Shown: in pieces, positions 3,408 to 32,007 of the stretch
Layout: the number at the start of each line of letters is the position of its first letter
Position numbering within the stretch: position 1 is the stretch's first letter
Assembly: GCA_018655525.1 (NCBI GenBank)
Contig: JABIJM010000013.1
Span: forward strand, 1 to 32,575
Direction of reading: 5' to 3'
Length of the DNA: 32,575 bases
Source of the DNA: Candidatus Woesearchaeota archaeon
Lineage (GTDB): Archaea; Nanobdellota; Nanobdellia; Woesearchaeales; GW2011-AR9
Translations under genes and position numbers: made by a program
Notes under the pieces: model-generated
The model's input: the letters and a program-made list of their open reading frames with translations, nothing else
The model's database searches: none
Told to the model about the DNA's origin: nothing

Positions 3408-3413
3408 TTTTTT

Positions 3414-3420
3414 TGACCTC
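3414..3420 (-). promoter_or_regulatory. Ribosome binding site of the large surface-protein gene
   Basis: GAGGTCA on the minus strand lies 6 nt upstream of the ATG at 3407. It matches the archaeal anti-SD and fixes the start. A strong site at an internal operon position suggests high translation. Confidence 0.6.
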
Positions 3421-3435
3421 GTAGATCTATTTAAT

Positions 3436-8877: not shown

Positions 8878-9927
8878 ATGACAACATCACAAATCATCGC
8901 AACACATGGAGAAGACCCAGATGGAATTATTGCACATGCATTATTATTACGTGCTTTAGAAATTTCAGATCAAACATTATCTCCTGAAACTAATCATTTT
9001 TTACGTTATGATAGGTTAGTAGAACAATTTAAAGGAATTAATTCTCTTGTACAGGATGGAAAAACTTCTTTGTATATTGCAGATGTTGGATTAAATCCTT
9101 TGTTAGCTGGTGAAAATGGTGGTAATCTAATTATCGACCTTTTACAAAAACCTCGTCAAGTTATGTGGATTGATCATCATCTTCCAACTATTGAAAGGAA
9201 ATCTTTATTTGATCAATTTGGAGGGAATTTAGTTTATTGTTCAAAACGTTCTTCGGGATTTTTAACAAAAACTCATTTTAATTTAAACTCAGATTATGAC
9301 ACTTTACTTGGAGGTATCTCTCAAGCTCATGATTACAAAAGACCTGGGAGGAATCATACCTTAATTACTTTAGGTGATGAATTACAACGAGTGATTTCTT
9401 ATGCTAATGCCCTTCCTGATGAGTCTTCGTCTTTTGAACTTTTATCTAATCTTACAACTAGTTTGAGAGATGATAAAATCATTCGTGGGTCTCGTCTTTC
9501 TTCTGATTGGGAAGACCTAATCATTGAATATGAATTTTTACAGCAACAAGCGTTTCATGATTTGGAAGAATCTCTTGAATTTGAAAACATTGCAGGCCAT
9601 GAAGTATTGTGGGCAGTATCTTCTCCTTATCTTTCTCAGAAAATTGCACCAAGGTATTTAGAATCTCAATACAGTGATAGTGTCGATCTTTGCGTAACTA
9701 TTTTTACCTCACCCGTTAGAAACCACATCATTGATGGATATTTTTGTAATGGTTTATCTATTGGAGATATTTGTAAATCCTTAGGTGGTGGTGGTCGTGG
9801 AAATGGAGGCGGATTCTCAGTTCCCTACGATACAACAGAAAAAACAATCCCTCAGATTAAAGAACTGGTCAGAGAACAAATAGAACTTTACTCGCCATCA
9901 AATTGCAGAAGTGAAAAAACATCATAA
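8878..9927 (+). CDS. DHH/DHHA1-family phosphoesterase
   Basis: The 349-residue product has the DHH metal-site motifs: THGEDPDG (His10, Asp13, Asp15), IADVG (Asp69) and IDHH (Asp99-His101). A C-terminal DHHA1 domain ends in the Gly-rich substrate loop GGGGRGNGGGF (303-313). Such proteins are manganese-dependent phosphodiesterases (NrnA or RecJ-like) acting on short RNA or DNA pieces or signalling nucleotides; the exact substrate is not clear. It is cytoplasmic, with no signal peptide. The last 40 bp overlap the 3' end of the convergent salvage-fusion gene, so both C-termini are coded on opposite strands of the same DNA. The start is set by the promoter at 8848-8857 (leaderless). Confidence 0.9.
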   Translation: MTTSQIIATHGEDPDGIIAHALLLRALEISDQTLSPETNHFLRYDRLVEQFKGINSLVQDGKTSLYIADVGLNPLLAGENGGNLIIDLLQKPRQVMWIDHHLPTIERKSLFDQFGGNLVYCSKRSSGFLTKTHFNLNSDYDTLLGGISQAHDYKRPGRNHTLITLGDELQRVISYANALPDESSSFELLSNLTTSLRDDKIIRGSRLSSDWEDLIIEYEFLQQQAFHDLEESLEFENIAGHEVLWAVSSPYLSQKIAPRYLESQYSDSVDLCVTIFTSPVRNHIIDGYFCNGLSIGDICKSLGGGGRGNGGGFSVPYDTTEKTIPQIKELVREQIELYSPSNCRSEKTS

Positions 9928-12218
9928 TTTGCTAACTTTTCTTTTCCTTTTAAATCTGGTAAATCAATTACAAATGATAACCCAGCAACCTTTCCACCAA
10001 GTTTCTCAACCAAATCACAAGCAGCTCTTGCCGTTCCACCGGTTGCAATCAAATCATCTACAATTAATACTTGATCTTCAGGATCAATAGAATTTTTATG
10101 GATCTCAATTGTATCAACACCATATTCTAACATATATTCTTGTCCTACTGTTTCTGCAGGTAACTTTCCTTTTTTTCTGATTAATACAAAAGGAAGTCCT
10201 AATTCCAATGCGAGTGGTGCACCAAAAATAAAACCGCGTGAATCAATTCCAGCAATTTTTGTTAAACCTGTATTTTTATATCTTGCAACTAATCTTTTCA
10301 TTGCTTCTTTGAACGCTATAGGGTTCTCTAATAACGTTGTGATATCTTTAAACATTACTCCTTCCTTCGGCCAGTTTGGAACTGTTCTAATAGAGCCAGC
10401 AAGATCAAATTCTTTCTTTTCCGTAGCCGTGGGTGATGAGTTAGCAACCTCCTTTCCACAAATCTTCGGAATCGTATTTACTAATAGTCCTGTGACTTTT
10501 TCAACATTCTCCTTAAAAACTTCAAGAACCGCTTCCCATGTTACGGGTTCTTCCTCTTCCTTCCAACAATCATAATCTGTACTCATTGCGACAGCAGCAT
10601 AAGGAATGCCAATCTCGTTTGCAAGAATTGCTTCAGGTGCAATAGACATATTAATTACATCTGCGCCCCAAGATCTAAATACGTGACTCTCGGCTTTTGT
10701 AGAAAATCTCGGACCTTCTATTGTTACAACTGTTCCTTTTGGATGACATTTCACTCCTAAATTATGAGCGGTTTCAATAAACAACTCTCTTAAATTTTCA
10801 TCAAAAGGATTTGCCATTGGAGTATGTTTGATATTTCCATCAACAAATTCTTCATGGAATGTAATTTTTCTATGTCTTGTAAAATCAATGAATTGATCCA
10901 ATACTACAAAGTCTCCTCTTCCAATTTCTTCACGTAAACTACCACATGCAGTAGTTGCAAGAATATGTGTGCAACCAATTTCTTTTAATGCATAAATGTT
11001 TGCACGAAAATTAACTTGTGTTGGAGGAATGCTATGATCTCTTCCATGTCTTGCTAATAATGCAACATCAATTCCTCCAATTTTACCAACTTTCAGTAAA
11101 GAAGTCGTTTTTCCATATGGCGTTTCTATTTCTTCATCCTTAGCATCTTGCAATATGTCAGGATCATCTAATCCAGATCCACCTATAATCCCAATTTTGA
11201 TGCATTGAGATTCCTCTTCATTTTCTACTTCTAATCTGTCAGCATATTCTTTGGCTAATGTAAAATATTCTTTTGCAGTACCTTCAATTTTTGTTTTTTC
11301 TTCATAGGATAATCCTTCATGTAATCCAAAGCATGCAATTTTTGCTCTAATATATGCACGATAACATTTATAAAAATTAAGTAATGTGTGTGTGTCTTTA
11401 TCTTCACTTAATTTCTTATATTCATTTACAAAAATATCCGATAAATCTTTTCTTCCGAAATAATCTAAATCCATTGCCATAAATGCAACTTCTGAAATGA
11501 CATCGCTGCATGGAAATCGCTTGTTAAATGTTAATGAATCAAATATCACTGGTCCATTTTTTGTAAGGAATATATTTGCAGAATGAAAATCGCCATGGCA
11601 ATGTTTGATTTTTCCATCTACAACCCTTTTATTGAATAATTCTTTATTATTTAGTATAAACTTTTCAACTTTATTTTTTATCTCTTCAAAATTTCCTACT
11701 AAATGTTTATGTTGCTCCGTTTGTTCAAAATTTTCTTTCCAATTTAATGTAATATTATCTAAACTTCCAAATTGTGAAACTTCTTGATCACTTATCGCAT
11801 TTGTATGGAAATCAAACGTTTTTTTTGCTAATTCTTGAACGTCTGATTCTTGAACTTCATTTCTTTGTAATTTCAGATCCATGGAACTCTCGGGATCTTC
11901 TTGGCGCATACGTAACGCATATTCAATAACTTCTCCATCTCCATTAATCCTTAAACCTTCGAGCTCTTTTGTAATTGGAACTACATCAATATAGAGCTCA
12001 GGAGTGATTCTAGAATTTAAACGTAATTCATTATAACAATGATTTTTTCTTTTCTCTAATGTTGAAAGGTCAAGGAATCCAAGATTAACGCCTTTATTTA
12101 TTTTATACGCATACTTCCCTGTAAGAAATACAACTGCGGTAGATGTCTCTCTAATCTTAATATCTTCCGTTTCATGGGGGTATGTTTCAGATTTATACAA
12201 ACAATCTCGTAAATGCAT
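9888..12218 (-). CDS. Three-domain fusion: APH-like kinase, MTA phosphorylase, APRT
   Basis: The 776-residue product joins three domains. Residues 1-335 are a COG2187/APH-type kinase: AYKINKG (Lys39), LGFLDLSTLEKR, catalytic loop HGDFHSAN (208-215, Asp210), IFDSLTF (Asp227). Residues 340-587 are S-methyl-5'-thioadenosine phosphorylase: IIGGSGL, ARHGRDHSIPPTQ, EGPRFSTKAES, and STDYDCWKEEEE, which is typical of MTAP rather than inosine-type PNP. Residues 603-776 are adenine phosphoribosyltransferase, with PRPP loop VLIVDDLIATGGTA (717-730). MTAP splits methylthioadenosine into adenine and methylthioribose-1-phosphate; APRT turns the adenine plus PRPP into AMP. The kinase substrate is unknown. 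Linkers are short (331-339 and 588-602), and all key residues are present. The start ATG is 25 nt from a shared TATA box. Confidence 0.93.
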   Translation of the reverse strand: MHLRDCLYKSETYPHETEDIKIRETSTAVVFLTGKYAYKINKGVNLGFLDLSTLEKRKNHCYNELRLNSRITPELYIDVVPITKELEGLRINGDGEVIEYALRMRQEDPESSMDLKLQRNEVQESDVQELAKKTFDFHTNAISDQEVSQFGSLDNITLNWKENFEQTEQHKHLVGNFEEIKNKVEKFILNNKELFNKRVVDGKIKHCHGDFHSANIFLTKNGPVIFDSLTFNKRFPCSDVISEVAFMAMDLDYFGRKDLSDIFVNEYKKLSEDKDTHTLLNFYKCYRAYIRAKIACFGLHEGLSYEEKTKIEGTAKEYFTLAKEYADRLEVENEEESQCIKIGIIGGSGLDDPDILQDAKDEEIETPYGKTTSLLKVGKIGGIDVALLARHGRDHSIPPTQVNFRANIYALKEIGCTHILATTACGSLREEIGRGDFVVLDQFIDFTRHRKITFHEEFVDGNIKHTPMANPFDENLRELFIETAHNLGVKCHPKGTVVTIEGPRFSTKAESHVFRSWGADVINMSIAPEAILANEIGIPYAAVAMSTDYDCWKEEEEPVTWEAVLEVFKENVEKVTGLLVNTIPKICGKEVANSSPTATEKKEFDLAGSIRTVPNWPKEGVMFKDITTLLENPIAFKEAMKRLVARYKNTGLTKIAGIDSRGFIFGAPLALELGLPFVLIRKKGKLPAETVGQEYMLEYGVDTIEIHKNSIDPEDQVLIVDDLIATGGTARAACDLVEKLGGKVAGLSFVIDLPDLKGKEKLANYDVFSLLQFDGE

Positions 12219-17720: not shown

Positions 17721-18065
17721 TTATGCTCTCAAAACCAATTGATCTTTTGAATTTAGAAAAACTATCTCTCTTGGTTGTTTATGGGTTGTATAATAATCAA
17801 ACTTGGTTTCTAAGCCATAACATGTTGAGGTATATCCTACAATTTCCTCTTTTGAAGTCTCCATTCCTTCCAATGCAATTATTGCCGCCGTATGAACTCC
17901 TGAAATGTATTGTCCGACTTCACTTTTTGATATATTTGATTCAATTTGCAAGATTTTATCTAATCCTCTGGGAGATTGGCTCTCTAACTTCCTAAATGCA
18001 TTTTTGTTATTTCTATTTTGAAAACACTTCAAAGATTCTTTTTGTAAATTTATTTTTATTGTCAT
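17721..18065 (-). CDS. Unknown protein, first gene of a three-gene operon
   Basis: The 114-residue product starts at an ATG with a good ribosome site (AAAGGTGA, 18073-18080). A basic N-terminal third is followed by a mixed region with TAAIIALEGMETSKEEIVGYTSTCYGL in its middle. It is soluble, and I do not recognise the family. It is divergent from a TrmB-type regulator that shares its promoter region, which suggests that the regulator controls this operon. Confidence 0.6.
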   Translation of the reverse strand: MTIKINLQKESLKCFQNRNNKNAFRKLESQSPRGLDKILQIESNISKSEVGQYISGVHTAAIIALEGMETSKEEIVGYTSTCYGLETKFDYYTTHKQPREIVFLNSKDQLVLRA

Positions 18066-18072
18066 TTTATTT

Positions 18073-18080
18073 TCACCTTT
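18073..18080 (-). promoter_or_regulatory. Ribosome binding site of the small-gene operon
   Basis: AAAGGTGA on the minus strand, about 7 nt before the ATG at 18065, shows that this operon has a true leader, unlike the divergent leaderless regulator. Confidence 0.55.
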
Positions 18081-18112
18081 TCATTTGTTATTCTTTAATG
18101 ACAAAACAGAAA

Positions 18113-18123
18113 CCTTTAAATAC
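18113..18123. promoter_or_regulatory. Shared TATA region of the TrmB regulator and the small operon
   Basis: CCTTTAAATAC has the palindromic core TTTAAA. On the plus strand it lies about 27 nt before the ATG at 18146. On the minus strand it predicts a start near 18091 and a leader of about 26 nt with a ribosome site. Confidence 0.5.
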
Positions 18124-18145
18124 TACTATTAGCAACAAGCTACTA

Positions 18146-18892
18146 ATGGGTGAGAAATTACGTAAACTAGGACTAAGCCCGTACGAATCAAAGTGTTATC
18201 TCACTTTAGTTAAGTACGGAAACCTTCTAGGAAAAGAGGTTGCAAAGAAATCTAATGTTCCTCCTACGTCTGTTTACAGAAACTTAGAAACTCTGCGAAA
18301 GAAAGGATTTGTGCAAGTTATTCAAAAGGATCCCTTAGTCTATCAAGCAGTTGATCCAGAAATTGCAGTTCAAACTCATGTCAACAATCAAAAAGAACAA
18401 TTGGAGATATTAGAAAAAAACACAATCTCGGAATTAAAATCAATCAAAAAAACAGGTGTCATTGAAAAGAAGGAAGAAGTTCTTGAAGTTTATGCTGGAA
18501 GAGAACAATCTTACACTTTAGGAAAAAAATTAATTCAGCAATCAAAGAAAGAATTTCTACTTGTTGGAAGAGGAAATCAACGTTCAATTATTTCATTAAT
18601 TCATGTGCTTCGTGCTGCAGTGAAACGGAATGTAACTTGTAAATTTCTCATAACTGGCTTTGATGAAGTTAGGGGAGATATTGAAGAACTAAAAAAAGCA
18701 GGTGTTAAAATAAAACATCTTCCTCTAACTGGTTTCTCCCTTTTAGTAAAAGACCGTACAGAATCACAAGTCGTAATAAAGGATAAAAATCTAAAAGAAG
18801 AAAGAGTTGTTCTAAGAATTAAATCAAAAGATCTTTCGCAAGCACATGCAACATATTTTGATTCCATGTGGAAAAAGGCAACGCCCATCTAA
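18146..18892 (+). CDS. TrmB-family transcriptional regulator
   Basis: The 248-residue product has an N-terminal winged-helix domain (GLSPYESKCYLTLVKYG, then VPPTSVYRNLETLRKKGFV), a coiled-coil-like helix, and a C-terminal effector-binding region with a PLD-like alpha/beta pattern (FLLVGRGNQRSI, KFLITGF). TrmB proteins sense sugars or other small molecules and switch nearby genes. The start at 18146 is chosen by the leaderless TATA spacing and because it begins right before the helix-turn-helix; upstream Met options would cross the promoter. It likely controls the divergent three-gene operon, itself, or the surface operon downstream. Confidence 0.87.
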   Translation: MGEKLRKLGLSPYESKCYLTLVKYGNLLGKEVAKKSNVPPTSVYRNLETLRKKGFVQVIQKDPLVYQAVDPEIAVQTHVNNQKEQLEILEKNTISELKSIKKTGVIEKKEEVLEVYAGREQSYTLGKKLIQQSKKEFLLVGRGNQRSIISLIHVLRAAVKRNVTCKFLITGFDEVRGDIEELKKAGVKIKHLPLTGFSLLVKDRTESQVVIKDKNLKEERVVLRIKSKDLSQAHATYFDSMWKKATPI

Positions 18893-18950: not shown

Positions 18951-18962
18951 GCTTTATAAAGC
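18951..18962 (+). promoter_or_regulatory. TATA box of the four-gene surface operon
   Basis: GCTTTATAAAGC is a perfect 12-bp palindrome centred about 25.5 nt before the ATG at 18982. No other promoter is visible until 29352, so it should drive all four genes. Confidence 0.65.
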
Positions 18963-18981: not shown

Positions 18982-20958
18982 ATGTACAAAAAGAGGTGTA
19001 AATTAGATGTACTTAGGTCTATTTCTAAAACTAATTCCAAGAAAGGTCAAGTTACTGTTTTTATCATAATTGGGATCGTTCTTGTACTTGCGTTAGCACT
19101 TGTAATTGCAGTTCAGACAGAAGTAATCAAATTTGGAACAGATGAAGTTTCACCACCCGAAGAAGGAAAAGTGGGAAGTTTCATTTCTACATGTATCAAA
19201 AATATCGGTGAAGATGCAATTCATCAAATAGGATTACAAGGTGGATATGTGACTGTTCCTAATTCCATTGCAAACGATGGGTTTGTTCATCTTAGAACTT
19301 CTCCATTTCAAGTAATTCCATATTGGGCAGTTGGAAGTACAACAAACATTCCTACATTAGATGACCTCAAGTTACGAATAGATCAACATCTTGAACAAAA
19401 CCTCAAAGCATGTGTTTTTAATTCACAGGCATTTCAAGAAACATATGACTTAATTGAAAAAAGTGACATCTCATCAGACACAAAAATAGAAAACAGTAAA
19501 GTTATTTTTAATATTCAATGGAATGTAGAACTTCGTGAGAAATCGGGAAGTCTTGTTGGCGAAGTTTTACAACATAGAGCAGAGTCACCAATCAAACTGA
19601 AGAAAACACATTTCCTTGCAACAAGAATTGTAGAAAAAGAATTACAAAACTTAAAATTAGAAGATATTGCGCAAGATTTAATTGCGTTAGATCATCCAAA
19701 TGTGCCTATCTCTGGAGTTGAAATAAGTTGTTCACAGAAAACATGGGATGTATCAAAAGTTAAAGAGTCCTTACAAGGATTACTTAGTCATAATATTCAA
19801 CAACTTAAAATTCAAGGAACAAATTTTGAAGAATTTCCTGAAGATTTACCTTATTACTCCTCACATTACATCTGGAATGTTGGAGAAGATATTGATGAAG
19901 ATGAATTAAGTGTTTCTTTTGATTATGAACCTTCGTATCCGTTCACATTTGGTGTAACACCTTTAACGGGTTCTAAATTAAAAAGTTCACAATTAGGTGG
20001 TTCTGATGTTCTTTCATTTTTATGTATACAAAACTGGAAGTTTACCTATGATTTAGAATTTCCAGTCAGAGTACGTGTACGAGATGAAACAACAGGGTAC
20101 AATTTCAACTTTGCATTTACAGTACATCTTATCAGAAATGAACCAAATCGTGGTTTAATCATAGCACGACCAACAACTACCTTTGAAACAGTTACTGATG
20201 AAGCTTTTTGTAACACTAGGGATATTCCGATGACTGTTAAAACATATGAACACATTACTAATGAAGAAGGTGTTGATTTTAGGAATGATTTAGGTGACGT
20301 TGCATTATCTTATACATGTATAAAATATAAATGTGAATTAGGAAATGCAGATTACAATTTTGGGGATCAAGGATTTTCCGGTCTCACAACAAATTTCCCG
20401 TATTGCGTAGGAGGAATTTTACGAGGAACGCGTGATGGTTACAAAGAAACATGGGAACGAGTTATAACATCTGCAGGACAGGAAATAGAATTAAACCTTG
20501 TTCCTTTATACAAATTCCCACATGCGAAGGTTACAATTTTAAAACACGAATTATTAGAAGATGGTTCAATGGGTCAAGGAATCCCCTTATCAACAAAAGA
20601 ATCAGCTCTTATCACATTAACATATAGAAAATCTAACGATCCTGTCAATCAACCATCTCATGAAACAACTTTTGTGAGATCTTTTGACATAGATCCTAAA
20701 GTTGTGGAAGAATCCGAATTTGAATTATTAGCAAAAGCAGATTTCCCTTATGATGTTGACATCACTCTAATTGATGATAAAACAATTATGGGTGGATATG
20801 AGGGAGTATGGAATGTTGAATGGGCAGAATTACAATCAGCACAAGAAATGGTGTTCCATGTTTTTACAACACAAAAAGATAACGAAGAAGAACTTGCAAG
20901 TTTACTGATTGCAAAAGAAGCAACAAGCAAGAACCTTCCAAAACCAGAATTAAAATGA
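18982..20958 (+). CDS. Large prepilin-like exported protein
   Basis: The 658-residue product begins with a basic stretch and the class III signal motif KKG|QV (residues 20-24), followed by one hydrophobic helix (about 24-45). Archaeal prepilin peptidase should cut after Gly22. The rest is a large extracellular part with no further membrane segment and about a dozen Cys, made mostly of beta-rich sequence. Ordinary archaeal pilins are 100-200 residues, so this is a giant relative. Its stop overlaps the next start (ATGA), which makes it the first gene of an operon of exported proteins. I infer a pilus-like or surface-complex core; the family is not one I can name. Confidence 0.8.
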   Translation: MYKKRCKLDVLRSISKTNSKKGQVTVFIIIGIVLVLALALVIAVQTEVIKFGTDEVSPPEEGKVGSFISTCIKNIGEDAIHQIGLQGGYVTVPNSIANDGFVHLRTSPFQVIPYWAVGSTTNIPTLDDLKLRIDQHLEQNLKACVFNSQAFQETYDLIEKSDISSDTKIENSKVIFNIQWNVELREKSGSLVGEVLQHRAESPIKLKKTHFLATRIVEKELQNLKLEDIAQDLIALDHPNVPISGVEISCSQKTWDVSKVKESLQGLLSHNIQQLKIQGTNFEEFPEDLPYYSSHYIWNVGEDIDEDELSVSFDYEPSYPFTFGVTPLTGSKLKSSQLGGSDVLSFLCIQNWKFTYDLEFPVRVRVRDETTGYNFNFAFTVHLIRNEPNRGLIIARPTTTFETVTDEAFCNTRDIPMTVKTYEHITNEEGVDFRNDLGDVALSYTCIKYKCELGNADYNFGDQGFSGLTTNFPYCVGGILRGTRDGYKETWERVITSAGQEIELNLVPLYKFPHAKVTILKHELLEDGSMGQGIPLSTKESALITLTYRKSNDPVNQPSHETTFVRSFDIDPKVVEESEFELLAKADFPYDVDITLIDDKTIMGGYEGVWNVEWAELQSAQEMVFHVFTTQKDNEEELASLLIAKEATSKNLPKPELK

Positions 20959-23900
20959 ATCACATCAAAAAATTAAGTACATTGTTGGTCATCTTACTAT
21001 TCATATCTCTCCCATTAGCATCCGCTTTAGAAATCTCTGGAGTACAAACAACACATGTCACAGATACTTCCGCAACGATTACGTGGCAAACTGATGAACC
21101 GGCAGATACATTTGTTGGATTTGGAACAACAAAAACAACATTAGAAAAGAAAGGTGATGCATCTCCTGTAACAACGCATGAACTTCCTTTATTTAATCTA
21201 AAACCAAAAACAAAATATTTCTTTAATGTTGAATCTGGGACTACAACTGATGATAATGGCGGGAAACTTTACAGTTTTGAAACTCAAGCACCAGACACAA
21301 CAGCACCTGAAGTTGAACTTTCATTTCCAGAAATGGTTGCAGGAAATCAATTAACTTTGAAAGGTTCAACAGAACTTGGTGCAACAGCTACGATTTTTGT
21401 AGGTGGAAATCAAGCAGGAATTGCCTTGGCAAAAAAATCAGATGAAACATCAGGAAAAGAATACAAACATACTGGTGTGTTTACATTTAGTGGTGTTTTA
21501 CTTCAAAATAATAAAGAAAATGATGTGAAAGTAGAAGTTAGTGATGCTTCTGGAAACAAAGCAAGTGTTGATGCAAAAATCTTTGCAGATACCAACAAAC
21601 CAAAAATTACGATTGGTAAGGTTCCAAGTTTAATTGGAGATACCTCTTATAAAATTGAAGCAACTGTTTCTGAGGAAGTATCCTATGAAATTACAATTAA
21701 CAATAAATCTGTGAAGAAGGGTGAAGGAAAGAAAATTTCAGAAACTATTTCGCTTAAAGAAGGAAAGAATGATGTTCAGATCATTGCAACAGATAAAGCT
21801 GGTTGGGAAGTTGTAGAACAATTTTCAATTTCTACTGATACAAGAGATCCAACGGTCAAATTTAAAGTTGCGAAAGGAAATGAATATTACCAAGGATCTG
21901 CTGAATCTTCTATCTCTGGAACCACTGAAGCAGGTGCAAAAGTATTCCTATATATTTATAGACCGACAACAATAGAATTTAATCCTGATTTCTCTAAGGC
22001 ATGGATGGAAACTACTGCGAATAATAAGGGAGAATTTACTTTTGAAGAAGTAAACTTTGAATCACAACCAATCTCTTTGAAATCTCTTGCACCAAAGCAA
22101 GTTCCTCAAGGATTACAGAAAGTAACGCTTCAACCTGTGGCGCAAGCAGGAGAATTACAACGTCAAACTGCACATGTGTATGTCATTGCAGAAGATCAAT
22201 CCGGTAAAACAGGATATCAACAAGCAACTGTAAGTATTAATTCTTGCTTCTCCGGTGATTTTGTGTTTGATGTACATTCTATCACACAATTCCAAGCGCC
22301 ATTAAAATTAAACCCTCAACTTTTAGATGAAGGAAGGGAAGTTGCAACTGCCGTATTTAATTTTTCATATCGTGGAAGCGCTTCTCCAATTGTTGATCCT
22401 GTTACAGGTGATGAAGTTGAGCCTGCATTTAAAATTACAAATGTTGCATTTGACCCTGCATGTACGCAAGGTATGTTAAAAGATCCAGATACAAAATTAG
22501 GATGTAACATCTTACCACGACGACCTCAAAGTAGGATACCAAATAATGACATGACTGCATATATGTTAACGTACAATTTGAAAAGTTCAGAAACTTTAAG
22601 TAAAAAAGAAAGTGGCTATTGGGATGAATTCAAAAAACGTCAAATTATGTTTCCACTAAAAATTACAGTGAGTTACCAAGAACGTGAAACTGTTACCACA
22701 GGAAGCGTGCTTGGCTCCACCACAAAAGCAAATTATGGTCCTAAAAAAACACAGGTTTCTTGTCAACAATTAGGATATTTTGTAGATATCCCTATAGATA
22801 GTTCTGAATATGTGCCAGATTGGTTAGCAGATGAAGGAATTGCAACAACGACATATGTCAGTGAAAAAATTGAAGCGCTTCTTCCGATTTTAGAAAAAAC
22901 AGTTCTTGTAACTGGTGTAGGATGTATCACGTCATTTGTTGGAAGAATTGGATTTAGATTTGCAAGGATTTTCACATCTAAAATGGAAGTGATTGAATCT
23001 GCAGCTGCAGTTAAAGCAGGAACAAAAAAGGAAGAAGAAGCATGTCCATTAAATCAAGAGGATTTAATTTTAGAATCAACAAGATCTGAATGGGATACAT
23101 TACAAAAAAATGGTATTCTTTCAGGAAATTCAATTCCAAGAGTTGATTTAACTAATAAAAAAGATACTTTAGACGAACGATGCCCAGCAACCGCAAAATT
23201 ATGGAAAGCAGAGGCAGCATTTGATCAAGCATATAGATGGAGTTGCGATCGTGTATTCTGTCGTCCAGCACCAGCAGCATGGACTGCATCAGAAGACAAA
23301 GGTGGTGTTGATGCGGTAATTATTAAACAAGAGCAATGTACCGTGACAAGTAGAGGGATTCCTTTACAGAAAGTTGAAAATTGTCAAGATAAAATTAGCA
23401 CAGCTCCTACAGTTCAATTAAGTGCAGAAGCAACTAAATTAAAACAAAAAGGTTCCTTTACATGTTATAGAAACCCATTAACTGAACAATTATACTATGT
23501 TGATCCTGCTGAAATTCAAGCGAGTGATGGAAAATCTGTGAAATTAAAATGGTTAAGTCCTGTGAGAGGATTAGAATTGAATTCTGCATTTAATCTTAAG
23601 AAAACAGGTGATACGTTGTTTGCCTATAAAGGACCAAATTCAAAAGAGGTTATTGTAGGGACTGATCAAGTTTGTAAAAATGTATGTGAAAATCCTAAAG
23701 CACCAGGATATAAAGCAGCAGATAGATGTTATGATGAAGTAAAAACAGGATTAACTGGTCAAACTAAATTAATGGATGGTACACAAAAATTACCTGAAGG
23801 CGCACGTCCTGCTGGATATACTAAAGATTGTTTTATTCCAGGAAAAGGAGCTGTTAAACCTACAGGAAGTAAAACAGGATTACAACAATGCGTTTGTATT

Positions 23901-26303
23901 CCGGATGAAAAAGCAAAAATTGATAATCTTGGAAATGCGCGTGAAGCAACAAAAGAAAAAACAGTTGCTACGGGAACATTCTCTGAAGATTGGGTTTACC
24001 GACAAGATCAATTATATAAAACAAATCCTTCTAAAGGAACCTATTATCCAACATGGCGATATTATTCAGGAAGAGATACCTCTGCAACATTTGGATTAAA
24101 TCATGTGTTAGATTTTGTTGGTTCTAATGATATTCCAACGATTAACCCTCACACTCAACACATTGGAGCTTTTCAATCAATGTGTCTTTCAGGAATTCAT
24201 GCACGTTTAAAATTAACAAATAATATTTTGAAATCGTTTAATTCCTGTATTGAAGAAGCAAAAACTGGTGGATTTAAAGATGCAGGTGTATGTAAAACAT
24301 TATTCTCGCAACAAATTTGTGGGCTAGCCTACAAAGGAATTTCTTACTTAACAAACTCATGCCAACCACTTAATTTTCAAGATGAATTGAAAGGAAGTAC
24401 AACAATTGATACACTTGGTCAAGGAACGAAAGCATTCTATTCTTCAATCCCTGAAGCGTTAAGTTCATCAACAAATGATTTACGTTCAGATTATGCGAAT
24501 TCAAATGTTGAAGCATTCTTTTCTGGCGGTGCACAAGGATTTGCACAAAGTATGTGTATGGCAGCATTTGGATATGATTTCCCTTCAGTGTCTAGTTTGA
24601 TTTTAGATTCCGCATATAATTTTCCTATGAAAACAACGGCTCATGCAATCCCAAGAGAACGTGAATTTTCGTCCTTTGATCCTGCAAGAGGAACTGCAGT
24701 TTATAATTATAATTTAGGAGCATTAATCATTCCAGGATGTAAAATTAGATCTGCAACTGCATCACTTGTATGTGTCGGTCCTGATGAACAAAACAGGCCT
24801 GGTGTCCAATGTGGAGATCAAGGATGCGATTGTGTACGTGCAACAGCACCCTCAAGTTTTGCAGGAGAAAAAACGAAACAACTTAATGGTGGAACTTTAT
24901 TTAACTTAAAACCTCATGACCCTATTTCAATTCCTTTACCATCTCCGCAAAAAATAAATTCAAATTTTAGATATGATCATGTTTTGATTGATTTAAAATT
25001 AGCTACAAATGAAAAACCTGAAACCTGCTTTGATGAAGGGTACTTAGATGGAAAATTCTACTTCCCTCTTCAAGACGTTTCACCACCTGGTGTAACAACG
25101 GCATGTCAAGCACAACTAACTACAGGGAAGTTCTTTTGTGCAGAAATTCAAGGATTATTTGGCACTGCTGGTAGTTATCTACAAGACCCTTATTTCACAT
25201 GCTTTGATAAAAATACGCAATCATGGGCTTCATGTGATACTGCGAATTTATTCACAAAAGGCGATGATATTCGTGTGAAGACACATGTGTTCTCAGATGG
25301 AAAGCCTGCTTGTTTAAAAATTACAGAACGGGGATTACAATCAAGTCAAACACGTGTAAGAGGACAACAACTATTACCTCAAAATCTACCTGGATCTTTT
25401 CAACCAGAATGGAACCTTGGTCAAGTAACACCTAATTTATTTTCAGGTGCAAGCAATTCTGTTGTGCCTGTAGCAAGTGAGAGTGATTCGGGATGTAGTA
25501 CTAATATTAATTATTTAACATCTCCAACAAGCCAAATTACGTCCTCCCAAACTTATAGATTTAATTATGAAACGCTTACAGGAGGATTGTATAAAGTAAC
25601 GATCCCTTCAGGTGTTACTGTAGATTCAGCGTCAAATTATACTGTTGTAAATAATATTTTGAAGAAAGGAACACAAGAAGGATTCACGGGATCAGATCTT
25701 GCAGCTGTGCCGTTCATATTTAATGGATTTAAAGTATCTGGATTAATTGGCTCTCCAACGAATCCTCAAAAACGTCAATGTGCATATCAAGTTCGTGGAT
25801 CAGCTAGTCAACAATATTCACAAAATGACAAGGCTTTTACAATTACTGCAGAATTATTCAAACCAGATGCAAATGGTCAATGTTTCAACGTAAATCAACT
25901 TGTGAAAGCTCCTGCATTTGGAAAATCAAAAATTAGTAAAAATATCAAAATTCAACTTGACCCTGCTAAAATACAAATTGTGTCTCAAATACACAATGAT
26001 TTCATGGCAGGAAGTTGTAGTGCAGTTCAACAACAAGCATCAGGAATTATTAATTCTGGTGGAAATGATCTTCAAGAAGCTAAAGCATTGTATTATTCAA
26101 CAGCGTGTTATGTTATGCAAGGACAATCAAATTGGCGACAGCAATATAAAAATGAAATCTGTACACGTACGGATATTTTCTTGAACAGAAAAGATGCTAG
26201 TGGTCAACCAATGACTCCTTATCCTCCTACCGTAACAAGTTCAATTGAATACACTAAAATGAAGCAATATTTATCAACAATTAGGAGTCAAGCAGCATGT
26301 TAA
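20955..26303 (+). CDS. Giant Cys-rich surface protein with fibronectin III and Ig-like domains
   Basis: The 1782-residue product has a signal peptide (cut near residue 24, PLASA). A fibronectin type III domain follows (about 26-112: TSATITWQTDEPADT, then LKPKTKYFFNV). Three Ig-like domains (about 116-430) contain no Cys. From about residue 431 to the end there are roughly 45 Cys, many in pairs (CKNVC, CVC, CGDQGCDC), and the last residue is Cys. A moderately hydrophobic helical stretch lies at about 638-673. No catalytic motif is visible. The N-terminal domains suggest adhesion; the Cys-rich body suggests a disulfide-locked extracellular structure. It is ATGA-coupled to the gene before and overlaps the gene after by 7 bp. 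Confidence 0.85.
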   Translation: MNHIKKLSTLLVILLFISLPLASALEISGVQTTHVTDTSATITWQTDEPADTFVGFGTTKTTLEKKGDASPVTTHELPLFNLKPKTKYFFNVESGTTTDDNGGKLYSFETQAPDTTAPEVELSFPEMVAGNQLTLKGSTELGATATIFVGGNQAGIALAKKSDETSGKEYKHTGVFTFSGVLLQNNKENDVKVEVSDASGNKASVDAKIFADTNKPKITIGKVPSLIGDTSYKIEATVSEEVSYEITINNKSVKKGEGKKISETISLKEGKNDVQIIATDKAGWEVVEQFSISTDTRDPTVKFKVAKGNEYYQGSAESSISGTTEAGAKVFLYIYRPTTIEFNPDFSKAWMETTANNKGEFTFEEVNFESQPISLKSLAPKQVPQGLQKVTLQPVAQAGELQRQTAHVYVIAEDQSGKTGYQQATVSINSCFSGDFVFDVHSITQFQAPLKLNPQLLDEGREVATAVFNFSYRGSASPIVDPVTGDEVEPAFKITNVAFDPACTQGMLKDPDTKLGCNILPRRPQSRIPNNDMTAYMLTYNLKSSETLSKKESGYWDEFKKRQIMFPLKITVSYQERETVTTGSVLGSTTKANYGPKKTQVSCQQLGYFVDIPIDSSEYVPDWLADEGIATTTYVSEKIEALLPILEKTVLVTGVGCITSFVGRIGFRFARIFTSKMEVIESAAAVKAGTKKEEEACPLNQEDLILESTRSEWDTLQKNGILSGNSIPRVDLTNKKDTLDERCPATAKLWKAEAAFDQAYRWSCDRVFCRPAPAAWTASEDKGGVDAVIIKQEQCTVTSRGIPLQKVENCQDKISTAPTVQLSAEATKLKQKGSFTCYRNPLTEQLYYVDPAEIQASDGKSVKLKWLSPVRGLELNSAFNLKKTGDTLFAYKGPNSKEVIVGTDQVCKNVCENPKAPGYKAADRCYDEVKTGLTGQTKLMDGTQKLPEGARPAGYTKDCFIPGKGAVKPTGSKTGLQQCVCIPDEKAKIDNLGNAREATKEKTVATGTFSEDWVYRQDQLYKTNPSKGTYYPTWRYYSGRDTSATFGLNHVLDFVGSNDIPTINPHTQHIGAFQSMCLSGIHARLKLTNNILKSFNSCIEEAKTGGFKDAGVCKTLFSQQICGLAYKGISYLTNSCQPLNFQDELKGSTTIDTLGQGTKAFYSSIPEALSSSTNDLRSDYANSNVEAFFSGGAQGFAQSMCMAAFGYDFPSVSSLILDSAYNFPMKTTAHAIPREREFSSFDPARGTAVYNYNLGALIIPGCKIRSATASLVCVGPDEQNRPGVQCGDQGCDCVRATAPSSFAGEKTKQLNGGTLFNLKPHDPISIPLPSPQKINSNFRYDHVLIDLKLATNEKPETCFDEGYLDGKFYFPLQDVSPPGVTTACQAQLTTGKFFCAEIQGLFGTAGSYLQDPYFTCFDKNTQSWASCDTANLFTKGDDIRVKTHVFSDGKPACLKITERGLQSSQTRVRGQQLLPQNLPGSFQPEWNLGQVTPNLFSGASNSVVPVASESDSGCSTNINYLTSPTSQITSSQTYRFNYETLTGGLYKVTIPSGVTVDSASNYTVVNNILKKGTQEGFTGSDLAAVPFIFNGFKVSGLIGSPTNPQKRQCAYQVRGSASQQYSQNDKAFTITAELFKPDANGQCFNVNQLVKAPAFGKSKISKNIKIQLDPAKIQIVSQIHNDFMAGSCSAVQQQASGIINSGGNDLQEAKALYYSTACYVMQGQSNWRQQYKNEICTRTDIFLNRKDASGQPMTPYPPTVTSSIEYTKMKQYLSTIRSQAAC

Positions 26304-26839
26304 ATAGTAAAGGAAAACTTGCAGTACAACTTTTAACGTTCCTCGTTGTCGCAGTTCTTAGTTCAGCGATTATGCTAACACTCGTACAAACAGGTGTTCT
26401 TAGTGTACGTGCAGAGAACCAACCTTCTTTATTAGATTCTGAATTTGTGCCTGTTGGAAGGGTAGGAACACTTGCAATCACCAGTTTTGATTTTTGTAGG
26501 AGTATAGGTGATACCTTGAATTGTGTTGGAGAAACAGATGATTTCAATGTGAATCAAGAAATTCATTTCAAATTTGTCGTAGAAACCACAACTTCTTATG
26601 GGCAAATTCAACTTGTAGAAAATTATAGGGTAAAAGATTCCGAAGGTAATATTATTTTAAATGCAGATACAGAAGATGATTTCTATTTTGATTTAGAAAC
26701 AGATCAGAAACAAGAATTAGTAACGATGGCGGAATATTTTTTAATTTCAAATTCAGGAGATTACACTTTAGAATTAATTGTCAAAAATCCTCATTTAGGA
26801 AAAACAACAACAATCACAGAGGGGTTTAGTGTAGAATGA
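26297..26839 (+). CDS. Small membrane-anchored surface protein, pilin-like N-terminus
   Basis: The 180-residue product has a short basic start (NSKGKLA) followed by a hydrophobic helix (about 11-32), then an extracellular beta-rich domain of about 140 residues with two Cys and an Ig-like strand pattern. The KGK start only loosely fits the class III signal peptide, so it may be a minor pilin-like subunit or a simple signal anchor. The start lies 7 bp inside the giant gene, and the stop overlaps the next start (ATGA), so it is tightly co-translated. Confidence 0.75.
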   Translation: MLNSKGKLAVQLLTFLVVAVLSSAIMLTLVQTGVLSVRAENQPSLLDSEFVPVGRVGTLAITSFDFCRSIGDTLNCVGETDDFNVNQEIHFKFVVETTTSYGQIQLVENYRVKDSEGNIILNADTEDDFYFDLETDQKQELVTMAEYFLISNSGDYTLELIVKNPHLGKTTTITEGFSVE

Positions 26840-29352
26840 GGTTTAATCAATTATCTTTAATTGGGGTGATGTTATTAGTCTTATTTTCCTTTTCAATTAT
26901 GGGGGCTGAAGAATTAAATTCATGTGATAATGCAAACAGTAATACTTTTTGTCATCATAAATTAAATATTTTTTATAAAGCTGGAACAGCTTCTTATACG
27001 GGTGCGAAAATGTTGTCCTCTGGGAAATTAGAAGTTAATGGTGGTACATTTTTATGGACTTGGGGAGATATGGCTGACGATGAAATTGCAAAAAGTTTGG
27101 TTACTGTTGAACAATGGAAATGGGCACAATCAAGTTATTGTGGTAAATCAAATGCATGTACCAAAGAAAATTTTGATGCAAAGAAAACTTTTCCTCCTGG
27201 AGGTCCAGCAGTTGCTGCAACTCCTTCTTCAGGAAAATTAGATTGTGAATATAAGAAAATTGCAATTATTGGTGCATCAAATACTGTCAAAGCTAATTGG
27301 CGAAAAAGTTTTGGCGAATTTATTCAAGATTCATGTGATACAGAAGTGAAGATATTTGCAAAAGGAAGTTGTGGCCCTAATTGCCAATATAATACCTTCT
27401 TACAAAATGCATTAGACTTCAATCCTGATTTCATTATTGTTAATCCTTCAGGCAATGGGATTTCTAATCTTGATTCTTACACAAATAATGTCAGAAAAAT
27501 TGTTAAAAGGATTCAAGGACATTCTAAAAAAATCCCTGTAGGGATTATGGAAATTTCTGCACGGAAAAATTATAATTATGGAGGAAGTGCGAAATGGTCT
27601 CAAAAAATCCAGGATAATGTAGAAGAATTTAATAACAATCTCAATAAAAATCTAAATAAAGACATAACTTCAATTCACGATCATCTTACTATTGATGTTG
27701 TAATAAAAACTTACAATTTACTTGATGGTAATGATGGTGATGCCATTTGTAATTACTGTACTTCCGATGGGGGCCACTGGACAGAAAAAGGCCATCAGTT
27801 AGTTGCAGATCACATTTTAAAAGAGGTCTTCATTGCAGCTCCATCTTCGGTAGTTTCTCCTAAAACTCCTTCATCTCAAAAAGGAGCAGGCACTAAAGTT
27901 TCAGCAGGTGGGAAAACATTCTCTTCTGCTACCTTTCAAGGAACTGATTCTGAACGAGAACTAGATGAAGTTTGGAACAGAATCAGTGGATTTGTAGGAA
28001 CTCATAGTGGAGATGTATTTTATCAAAATAAATGGCAGCCGTATTTAATTGTTTATGGAAGCGGAATTCCTTCTTCTGGATCGTCTTCTGTGCCTCCTGT
28101 GGCCTCACCTTCTGTAACTCCTTCCTTGAACTCAGGTTTTTTAAAATGTACTGGTGCTGACCTTTCAAAGTTAAGTTCCTCTTCATTAAATCGTTGTGGG
28201 AATCATTTAGATCTTTATAAAAAACATGCAAAAACGATATTGGGAGTTGACGATACGGAAACAATTTTAACTCTTATGGCATTAACACAACAAGAAAGTT
28301 CTTGTAGGACTGATGTGAATGGTGGTTTAATGCAAGTTGATGCTGTTTGTAGGCCGGTTTCAAATTGTCCGACTGCCGATAAACAGATTGAAGAAGGAAT
28401 TAAAGTTTATAAAAGTTCATTTGATGGTTTGTCAAAAGCTACATCTGAAGATCGTATTAAATTAGTGTTGTTCTCATATAATCGTGGTCTTAATACTGCA
28501 AAAAAAGCCTTAAATTATAGAGGTCAAGGATTATCTTTACATGATGCAATGATTAAAGCTTGTCGTGAAAATTTTAATAAGGACTGTAAAGGCACGCAAG
28601 CATCTTGTAAATACGATAAAAATGGGAATGATAAATGTGATTTCCCTGGTTATGGTGCTCAGTATCATACAAAAGTTCAAAGTCGTTTTGATAAGGCTTG
28701 TGCTGAATTAGGAGGGGCATCAGGAATGGTTTCTTCTTCAACCTTAAACATCAAAAAAGATTTCCTTGGTCAACTAAAAGGAGGATCAAATACAAGATTG
28801 GCTTATGATTTTTTTGTTCTTCATGATGGTGCAGGTACATCTACCCCCAATTGTAAAAAAGCGATCACCTCTGTTATAAAAAATTGGAAATCTAGGAGTG
28901 ATGGTCTTGAAATATCCTCGCATTATTACATCTGTCATGATGGTACTACATATCAACTTCTTGATGAAGAAAAATATGGGATTCATGCGGGAAGATCTAA
29001 TTGTCCTGCAGGATTATGTCCTATCAAAAATGTTAACAGAAGATCGGTTGGTATTGATTTCCAGAATTATCAAGGGAGTTCTAAGAAAGGTATGTATACA
29101 GATGCACAATATGCAGCTGCAAAATCACTTCTTAAAGATATTGGAAGTCGGAGAAATATTCCTGTAGATGATCAGCATGTACTAGCTCATTTTGAAGTAA
29201 CGAAATCTGATCCTACCAAGAAACCTTCATTTTTTAAGAATGATCCTTATCCAGGATTTGACTGGTCAAAGATTGGAATGATTTATGACCATCATAATGT
29301 AAATGGACCATGGCAACCAGCAGTTGTTAAAGATGTGAACTTAGTATCTTAA
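26836..29352 (+). CDS. Secreted multidomain murein hydrolase: SGNH, lytic transglycosylase, amidase
   Basis: The 838-residue product has a signal peptide (about 1-24), a Cys-containing N-terminal region, then three enzyme-like domains. SGNH hydrolase (about 138-332): GASNT (Ser148) and SDGGHWTEKGHQLVADH (Asp311, His314). Lytic transglycosylase, SLT-type (about 455-625): LTQQESSC (Glu487), GGLMQV and FSYNRGL. N-acetylmuramoyl-L-alanine amidase, Amidase_2 type (about 655-815): VLHDGAG (His663), SSHYYICHDG, YGIHAGRSN, LAHFEV (His785), KNDPYPGFDW (Asp803), so all three zinc ligands are kept. Pro/Ser linkers lie at about 335-365 and 411-432. All targets are bacterial murein; archaea lack it. The SGNH domain may remove O-acetyl groups that block the transglycosylase (inference). 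It is the last gene of the surface operon. Confidence 0.9.
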   Translation: MRFNQLSLIGVMLLVLFSFSIMGAEELNSCDNANSNTFCHHKLNIFYKAGTASYTGAKMLSSGKLEVNGGTFLWTWGDMADDEIAKSLVTVEQWKWAQSSYCGKSNACTKENFDAKKTFPPGGPAVAATPSSGKLDCEYKKIAIIGASNTVKANWRKSFGEFIQDSCDTEVKIFAKGSCGPNCQYNTFLQNALDFNPDFIIVNPSGNGISNLDSYTNNVRKIVKRIQGHSKKIPVGIMEISARKNYNYGGSAKWSQKIQDNVEEFNNNLNKNLNKDITSIHDHLTIDVVIKTYNLLDGNDGDAICNYCTSDGGHWTEKGHQLVADHILKEVFIAAPSSVVSPKTPSSQKGAGTKVSAGGKTFSSATFQGTDSERELDEVWNRISGFVGTHSGDVFYQNKWQPYLIVYGSGIPSSGSSSVPPVASPSVTPSLNSGFLKCTGADLSKLSSSSLNRCGNHLDLYKKHAKTILGVDDTETILTLMALTQQESSCRTDVNGGLMQVDAVCRPVSNCPTADKQIEEGIKVYKSSFDGLSKATSEDRIKLVLFSYNRGLNTAKKALNYRGQGLSLHDAMIKACRENFNKDCKGTQASCKYDKNGNDKCDFPGYGAQYHTKVQSRFDKACAELGGASGMVSSSTLNIKKDFLGQLKGGSNTRLAYDFFVLHDGAGTSTPNCKKAITSVIKNWKSRSDGLEISSHYYICHDGTTYQLLDEEKYGIHAGRSNCPAGLCPIKNVNRRSVGIDFQNYQGSSKKGMYTDAQYAAAKSLLKDIGSRRNIPVDDQHVLAHFEVTKSDPTKKPSFFKNDPYPGFDWSKIGMIYDHHNVNGPWQPAVVKDVNLVS

Positions 29353-31197: not shown

Positions 31198-32007
31198 TCA
31201 AATCCGATCAGGGGCGCTCACGAGGGGATTTATTCCCCTCACTTTTAATAATTCTAAACGGTCGTTTATATTTGTTCCTTTTGGTAAATATCCATATTCT
31301 TTCCAAACACGGTATCTTGTAATTGAATTATAGCTTGAATATCCTACTTCTTCAATCCATTTTGAAAGATTTTTTTTACCATTTATCTCAATTTGATGAC
31401 TAACAAAGGGTTTATCTATTCTAATTCTATTATATGTAGCAGAAAAAATATTAAAATCCATTTCAATTAATAATTCTTTAAGAGAATCATGAAGCGTTTT
31501 ACTATTTGTTGCATGACTGATTACTGGATATTTTCCTCCCTTCTTGAAGACAAGACTAAAATCGGTGTCTGCAATCCCTCTAAGGAAAGCTCGTTTTATC
31601 TTCATATTTGAATTAAGTATGGGTTTTGGAATTCTTATGTTTGTTTTAGGGCTAAAAGAAATGTCACAAGAGTTATGGAGGAATGTTAATATTGCTTTAG
31701 ATCTAATTTCAATTTTTACAATATTTTTTGTAGATTTTGTTATATTAACTTTTTTATTGAATAAATTATTAATAAGTGGTTTTATGAATTCAATATACCA
31801 TTGGTATTCATTAATTTGATGTCCTCCATATAAAAGATGATAATCCCATTTGTTTTTTCTAATTTTAAGCTTCATGTATCCATCACCCACATGAAACCCT
31901 AAAAAATACGCTAATTCTTCTGTAAGAAATTCGGGAACTTTAATCCCAAGACGTTTGTCGTTGTTGCTATATTCTACTTTTGATAAATCTAATTTTTTCA
32001 TTTTCAC
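31198..32007 (-). CDS. LAGLIDADG-type homing endonuclease
   Basis: The 269-residue product has two LAGLIDADG-like motifs, ELAYFLGFHVGDG (31-43, Asp42) and AFLRGIADTDFS (140-151, Asp149), each followed by a beta-rich DNA-contact region. This is the single-chain two-motif layout. Such enzymes cut one long target and help introns or their own gene to spread. The last six codons are antisense to the 3' 19 nt of the intron-bearing tRNA-Asn. The start may be the GTG at 32007 (leaderless by TATA spacing) or the ATG two codons later. Asp149 is followed by Phe, not Gly, so activity is not certain. Confidence 0.82.
   Translation of the reverse strand: MKMKKLDLSKVEYSNNDKRLGIKVPEFLTEELAYFLGFHVGDGYMKLKIRKNKWDYHLLYGGHQINEYQWYIEFIKPLINNLFNKKVNITKSTKNIVKIEIRSKAILTFLHNSCDISFSPKTNIRIPKPILNSNMKIKRAFLRGIADTDFSLVFKKGGKYPVISHATNSKTLHDSLKELLIEMDFNIFSATYNRIRIDKPFVSHQIEINGKKNLSKWIEEVGYSSYNSITRYRVWKEYGYLPKGTNINDRLELLKVRGINPLVSAPDRI
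31222..31240 (+). terminator. Hairpin after tRNA-Asn
   Basis: GAGGGG and CCCCTC flank a 7-nt loop, five bases after the tRNA, followed by ACTTTT. It may end or process the tRNA transcript. It lies inside the endonuclease coding region on the other strand, so the repeat might also be chance. Confidence 0.4.

Follow-up and report, generated by a model that had tools for sequence, protein, structure and literature searches.

Four consecutive genes, P1 to P4, located in the 32,575 bp stretch of DNA analysed here (the window), probably specify a surface apparatus with which one Woesearchaeota family presents or deploys exchangeable peptidoglycan-cutting enzymes against bacteria. This reading draws on the synteny of the four genes, a conserved TATA box ahead of P1 but almost never ahead of the fourth gene, a constant module (EIDEVW) confined to products of the fourth position, the exchange of catalytic domains around that module, the presence of an A24 prepilin peptidase and the absence of a PBP transpeptidase. 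The source assembly is archaeal (Woesearchaeota; 0.96 Mb, 93.6% complete), and all data are from metagenome-assembled genomes (MAGs), the named relatives being Woesearchaeota and Nanoarchaeota MAGs.

P1 to P4 occupy positions 18982 to 29352 and are all on the forward strand, with overlaps of 4, 7 and 4 nt between successive genes (Table 1). The first-pass annotation had described genes joined by ATGA or 7-bp overlaps, one promoter with a palindromic TATA box at 18951 and four exported products; the overlaps were as described, GCTTTATAAAGC was confirmed at that position, and export signals were recognised in all four sequences. TTTATA was found at -29 to -32 relative to P1 (in one case at -40) in 24 of the 25 relatives' loci scanned, the 25th having no ATG within the scanned part, and the conservation of this predicted promoter is beyond chance. 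A TATA-like box ahead of the fourth gene was found in only one of 23 loci, where the gene is the second of two tandem copies. As the box is kept before P1 but nearly absent before the fourth gene, the pattern points to a single transcript that begins at P1, and it is likely that P1 to P4 form one co-transcribed unit. The 29 nt promoter spacing would be compatible with a leaderless archaeal transcript.

Table 1. Coordinates in the window of the predicted promoter, genes and protein domains of the P1-P4 operon
Feature	Coordinates	Strand	Description or basis
Promoter, palindromic TATA box GCTTTATAAAGC	18951..18962	+	Sequence; TTTATA 29 nt before P1 ATG
P1, 658 aa	18982..20958	+	Prepilin-like N-terminus KKGQVTVFIIIGI (residues 20-32), one TM helix (22-50)
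P2, 1782 aa	20955..26303	+	Signal peptide, FnIII/Ig-like N-terminal part, large Cys-rich core
P2 FnIII / purple-acid-phosphatase-N-like domain, residues 28-110	21036..21284	+	Pur_ac_phosph_N E 3.8e-6, fn3 E 8.8e-5 (both just under Pfam's own cut-off)
P2 Glucodextran_B Ig-like domain, residues 227-295	21633..21839	+	E 7.1e-7, above Pfam cut-off
P3, 180 aa	26297..26839	+	Prepilin-like N-terminus SKG-KLAVQ and one small domain
P4, 838 aa, predicted secreted mosaic murein-degrading enzyme (fourth-slot 'cartridge')	26836..29352	+	Pfam, HMM, comparison
P4 N-terminal module, residues 28-123	26917..27204	+	Comparison with G001, G002
P4 SGNH/GDSL hydrolase domain, residues 144-327	27265..27816	+	Lipase_GDSL PF00657 E 1.3e-7
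P4 EIDEVW module, constant part of cartridges	27943..28059	+	HMM A4 E 1.0e-14
P4 SLT / lysozyme-like domain, about residues 479-564	28270..28527	+	hhalign and motifs
P4 Amidase_2 domain, residues 657-794	28804..29217	+	PF01510 E 1.1e-18; AmpDh2 similarity

The gene directly upstream of the operon in the window (17996-18892, +) encodes a TrmB-family regulator. It was considered as an operon member and rejected, as none of the relatives examined had it ahead of P1, the usual gene there being one of the PAC2 family. Downstream, P4 is followed by a conserved gene for a bPH2-domain protein on the opposite strand, with enolase and other genes found in this position elsewhere.

P1 had been proposed to be pilin-like, and its sequence bears this out, with a predicted leader, KKG-QVTVF, of the class-III type (basic residues, Gly/Ala at -1 and a hydrophobic helix, by inspection of the alignment). 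The TM helix is followed by an extracellular part of ~600 residues, modelled as an extended, mostly beta-sandwich chain (AlphaFold pLDDT 82.8). P1 had no match in Pfam, its sequence profile retrieved nothing significant from the PDB, and comparison of the fold with the PDB and viral structures gave only generic beta-sandwiches, with query-normalised TM-scores of no more than 0.19 among the matches listed. Members of the P1 family were found in 129 of 147 genomes of the phylum, counting paralogs, one of which is in the same genome as the window (G000:C23:109666).

P2 has the 1782 residues reported for it and 42 Cys, where about 45 had been given; most are conserved within the family. The FnIII/Ig domains assigned to it were also recovered, as Glucodextran_B and FnIII-like matches in Pfam. 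The N-terminal signal is the only strong hydrophobic segment, with a marginal one near residues 641-667. The core of P2 could be assigned to no known family, and its profile gave nothing significant against the PDB. The core model was weaker than that of P1 (pLDDT 71.4), and its fold matched generic beta-sandwiches only in the PDB (query-normalised TM-score no more than 0.19 among the matches listed).

P3 had been described as a small anchored subunit, and it is small. However, the family alignment revealed a prepilin-like N-terminus, mostly KKG-xxxxE with Glu at +5 in the relatives, and the plain anchor was therefore dropped in favour of a second prepilin-like protein. A search of the PDB with the P3 profile found nothing significant.

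P4, previously seen as a single murein hydrolase, is indeed predicted to degrade the wall, but as a mosaic of three enzymes (Amidase_2, Lipase_GDSL and SLT-like) rather than as one. A predicted export signal, the hydrophobic segment at residues 1-27, precedes the N-terminal module, which is followed by the SGNH, EIDEVW, SLT-like and Amidase_2 parts in that order. The GAS, N and DxxH motifs are present in the SGNH domain. The SLT-like part had no direct match in Pfam and none in the PDB search, and its assignment thus rests on hhalign, which aligned it with the SLT domains found in other proteins of the fourth slot (probability 90%, E 1.4e-6), and on the motifs QQES, GGLMQ and SYNRG, found in that order. 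NCBIfam and PHROGs added only amidase/endolysin matches, and Pfam scans of P4 and the other fourth-slot proteins identified no known wall-binding domain.

When 60 genomes were searched with P2, 52 had a relative; the match was strong in 33 of the 36 family genomes, while weaker matches extended across the order. In 40 fetched neighbourhoods, other families included, P1 was directly 5' of P2 wherever the contig permits, and a script placed it no more than 600 nt upstream of P2 in 47 of the 48 non-redundant loci with room, the remaining locus having P1 somewhat further upstream. Using an HMM, P3 was found to follow P2 directly in almost every locus belonging to the window's family, and in no locus of other families in the non-redundant set. 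Judged by these neighbourhoods, P1-P2 is the older and wider core, while P3 and the fourth-slot cartridge are essentially limited to one family. The grouping of the genes, initially drawn from operon structure, was upheld by synteny across relatives, and the case of relatives that are never neighbours elsewhere did not occur. That P1 to P3 and the fourth gene form a real, conserved unit is well supported by gene order.

Two loci of the family, L026 and L047, have P1-P2 but no recognisable hydrolase after them. In these, P2 or P3 is followed by a non-hydrolase gene (L026, 14219-15481; L047, 11677-13020), the two being related (37% identical) and AlbA/Schlafen-like by eye.

The gene after P3 was found to encode a secreted multi-domain protein that is different in almost every genome, with modules shared in a mosaic fashion. 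Pfam matches placed about nine unrelated peptidoglycan-hydrolase families in this fourth slot, namely SLT, Amidase_2, Peptidase_M15_4/VanY, Peptidase_M23, Peptidase_M74, Hydrolase_2 (SleB type), Glucosaminidase, Phage_lysozyme2 and DUF2272, the Glucosaminidase, VanY, Hydrolase_2, one M74 and one M23 match being below Pfam's own cut-off. They are often accompanied by an SGNH esterase (Lipase_GDSL), and the other accompanying domains are polysaccharide deacetylase, metallophosphatase, endonuclease/phosphatase, DUF218 and FGE-sulfatase.

Almost all of the fourth-slot proteins include the EIDEVW module, which consists of 45 residues with the signature EIDEVW...W; the M74 protein in L045 is without it, and an EIDEVW protein in L033 has no known domain. 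When whole genomes were searched with the EIDEVW HMM, 29 matches at E<1e-6 were obtained in 26 of 37 family genomes, including that of the window. Of these matches, 25 are downstream of P2 in the same contig and the other four are near contig ends; of these four, two keep the flanking bPH2 gene and one is followed by enolase, as in several intact loci. Strong matches were limited to family members among 147 genomes of the phylum, with none in 128 genomes of other families, and inspection by eye showed a divergent copy in a single other family (G048, L132). A weak EIDEVW protein was also found in G006, a genome with no P2 match. This genome is 700 kb in size and 95% complete, and the protein (L137, 1330-3273, -) is secreted and CHAP-like at its C-terminus by eye. 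It is well supported by these comparisons that the fourth slot is an exchangeable murein-hydrolase position with a locus-specific constant module.

Within the genus, identity was 83% for P1, 79-81% for P2, 75-83% for P3 (83% in G002) and 76-86% for EIDEVW. For the catalytic parts of P4, the amidase region shared 21% identity with both same-genus relatives, and the SLT-like part 19% with one and 76% with the other. The N-terminal module was 60% identical in G001 and was not found in G002 (11%), where VanY and a further C-terminal part are present in place of the Amidase_2 domain of the window. When 28 loci were placed on a tree of P2, closely related sister species turned out to carry different enzymes, and M15 requires six changes for its six carriers and Amidase_2 four for four, though as the enzyme labels are Pfam matches, absences are less sure than presences. 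On these comparisons, the predicted cutting domains have been swapped repeatedly between close relatives around a constant EIDEVW module. The distances of P3 and EIDEVW were correlated beyond the P2 distance (partial r 0.40; 0 of 5000 permutations), which may be due either to binding or to joint exchange of neighbouring genes. In the sister species represented by L042 and L092, P2 is 80% identical, P3 35% and EIDEVW 36%, a pattern that would be compatible with joint exchange of P3 and EIDEVW.

A PBP transpeptidase was absent from 24 of the 25 family genomes searched, including that of the window, and in archaea without this enzyme the bacterial wall is the likely target. As many murein-specific enzyme families occupy the fourth slot, the substrate of the predicted enzymes is most likely bacterial peptidoglycan. 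Killing of bacteria by secreted archaeal hydrolases has been shown for haloarchaeal examples (PMC12352652), which lends independent backing to the proposed target and effect. The family's only PBP transpeptidase match is on a contig, G004:C22, that also carries an SLT gene and is possibly a bacterial contaminant.

The first-pass annotation had pointed to co-occurrence with prepilin peptidase and type IV assembly ATPase genes, and this was found in part. An A24 prepilin peptidase (PF01478) is encoded in the same genome as the window (G000:C2:10-351, E 2.7e-13) and in 54 of 60 relatives. A divergent T2SSE-family ATPase of 762 aa is present in nearly all family genomes (e.g. L130, 1711-3999), but was not found in the window's own assembly, G000 (93.6% complete), or in G001. 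An earlier view that the family is without any assembly ATPase was withdrawn on finding this protein, which may, from its family assignment, be an unrecognised assembly motor. A multi-TM protein adjoining it in some genomes had no match to T2SSF models. Neither the peptidase nor the ATPase was seen near the operon; no assembly genes were noted there, and the T2SSE matches are outside the fetched P1-P2 neighbourhoods. With the peptidase present and the ATPase not found in the assembly of the window, assembly of P1 and P3 by a type IV route is no more than possible. In L136 (G000:C2:1-6500), the A24 peptidase gene is followed by two small pilin-like ORFs, identified by eye, and a little past these is a separate gene for a secreted SLT transglycosylase of 307 aa.

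In the proposed surface apparatus, a single leaderless mRNA would give rise to all four proteins, and the class-III (prepilin-type) leaders of P1 and P3 would be cut by the A24 peptidase of the genome, leaving both proteins kept in, or built on, the membrane via the N-terminal helix. Secreted, very large and rich in Cys, P2 would then sit on P1 as a stalk or adhesive body, with the FnIII/Ig domains as its arms. The product of the fourth gene would be exported by its own signal peptide and dock via EIDEVW, with P3 the most likely partner, and the SGNH esterase, lytic transglycosylase-like and amidase domains of P4 would cut the murein of a contacted bacterium, presumably for entry, feeding or killing. 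Changing bacterial targets would select for catalytic swaps while the docking module stays with P1 to P3. It is likely that P1-P3 present P4 at the cell surface and that the enzyme acts on bacteria. We tentatively put forward the more specific possibility of a new archaeal contact weapon, in which a P1-P2-P3 surface complex carries interchangeable cutters via the docking module and enables DPANN archaea to breach living bacteria; P1 to P3 are unrelated by sequence or fold to the solved structures searched. The surface-apparatus reading is weakened by the L042/L092 pattern, by the missing ATPase in the window's own assembly, by the hydrolase-free loci L026 and L047, and by L033 and G006, as well as by the lack of a functional fold neighbour for P1 and P2, of assembly genes seen near the operon and of a recognised wall-binding domain in P4.

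It could instead be supposed that P1-P2-P3 form a general envelope or S-layer-like coat and that P4 is a free scavenger of murein from dead bacteria which shares a strong promoter with them. The occurrence of P1-P2 in families without P3 or a cartridge and of P1 relatives in 129 of 147 genomes of the phylum would be accounted for, and coats normally contain Ig-like and Cys-rich domains. However, a module found only adjacent to P3, and retaining 76-86% identity amid swapped enzymes, has no obvious use in a free enzyme, and the correlation between P3 and EIDEVW distances points the same way, making this reading unlikely. It is improbable, too, that P4 is a released antibacterial weapon with EIDEVW as its wall-binding or secretion module and P1-P3 as a separate adhesive structure. 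Secreted archaeal murein hydrolases that kill bacteria are documented (PMC12352652), and modular hydrolases often bear a wall-binding domain, a role open to EIDEVW as the sole constant part. A wall-binding module would be expected in the archaea's other SLT proteins, whereas strong EIDEVW matches were found only in the slot and SLT domains also elsewhere in the same genomes, and the strict linkage of EIDEVW to P3 would be left unexplained.

The prepilin-like N-termini of P1 and P3, the A24 peptidase in 54 of 60 relatives and the 762-aa T2SSE ATPase of most family genomes, with its multi-TM neighbour in some, are features that a type IV pilus-like filament would also have, with P1 and P3 as subunits, P2 at the tip and the hydrolase used at the bacterial wall in twitching or DNA uptake. 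This is more doubtful still, as the surroundings of the operon showed no assembly gene, the ATPase was not found in the window's assembly, the multi-TM neighbour has no T2SSF match, and the 600-residue extracellular part of P1 is unlike a major pilin. Remodelling of the archaeon's own wall was rejected as barely credible; murein hydrolases in bacteria are mostly housekeeping enzymes, but 24 of 25 family genomes, including that of the window, have no PBP transpeptidase, the single match being the possible contaminant.

Whether and how Woesearchaeota live on bacteria has so far been addressed mainly through single enzyme genes. Large extracellular proteins with murein lytic-transglycosylase domains were reported in Woesearchaeota and Pacearchaeota as fam00969 (Castelle et al. 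2021; PMC8204110), 'vampiristic' MAGs were described by Vigneron et al. 2022 (PMC9723730), and attack on bacteria was proposed from single transglycosylase genes (PMC8204110, PMC9723730). These enzymes are from the same archaeal group, and for them, as for P4, an SLT-type action on the walls of bacteria has been proposed. However, in the parts of the two papers drawn on here they appear as single enzymes, without a P1-P2-P3 operon, an EIDEVW module, slot exchange or prepilin-like partners. The antibacterial archaeal hydrolases of PMC12352652 (PLoS Biol 2025), a study that also noted Nanoarchaeota as rich in peptidoglycan hydrolases, are likewise secreted, modular and found in archaea without murein, but were selected for catalytic and known wall-binding domains, whereas P4 has no recognised wall-binding domain and is tied to a surface operon. 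Archaeal type IV pili and archaella share the class-III leader-like N-termini of P1 and P3 and the A24 peptidase in the genome, though not the very large non-pilin ectodomains, the giant partner or the lack of assembly genes nearby.

By analogy, the closest system in terms of how it may work is the polymorphic toxin locus, where a single constant module is likewise paired with a wide choice of catalytic domains, and the locus is fixed and preceded by conserved genes. Here, however, the constant module is internal, and wall hydrolases would be harmless to a murein-free producer. No cognate immunity gene was seen downstream of the fourth slot, where bPH2, enolase or other genes are found, and the locus thus does not belong among polymorphic toxin systems. 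Murein lytic enzymes were known in Woesearchaeota before, whereas no description of the P1-P4 operon or of its exchangeable cartridge was found in the open-access literature searched, and it is these that appear to be new. The operon offers defined parts, namely a surface core that is conserved, a module that is likely to serve for docking, and enzymes, and the swappable cutters have the look of an exchangeable tool directed at bacteria, either as a weapon or for feeding. The predicted bond specificity of the enzymes changes between close relatives and could indicate the bacteria that a given lineage encounters. If the reading is correct, the operon would be an archaeal counterpart of bacterial modular weapons and would provide numerous new peptidoglycan hydrolases.

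Elsewhere in the window, two adjacent long ORFs on the reverse strand (3-4806; 1150+ aa, cut by the contig end, and 456 aa) gave weak Ig/CARDB-like matches and are possibly another surface locus. A 776-aa protein (9888-12218, -) has nucleoside phosphorylase (PNP_UDP_1) and phosphoribosyltransferase domain matches, and the counterparts of its two parts are neighbouring ORFs in G042 (L058). An ORF at 31198-32007 (-) includes a LAGLIDADG_3 domain (E 1e-7) and is possibly a homing-endonuclease remnant.
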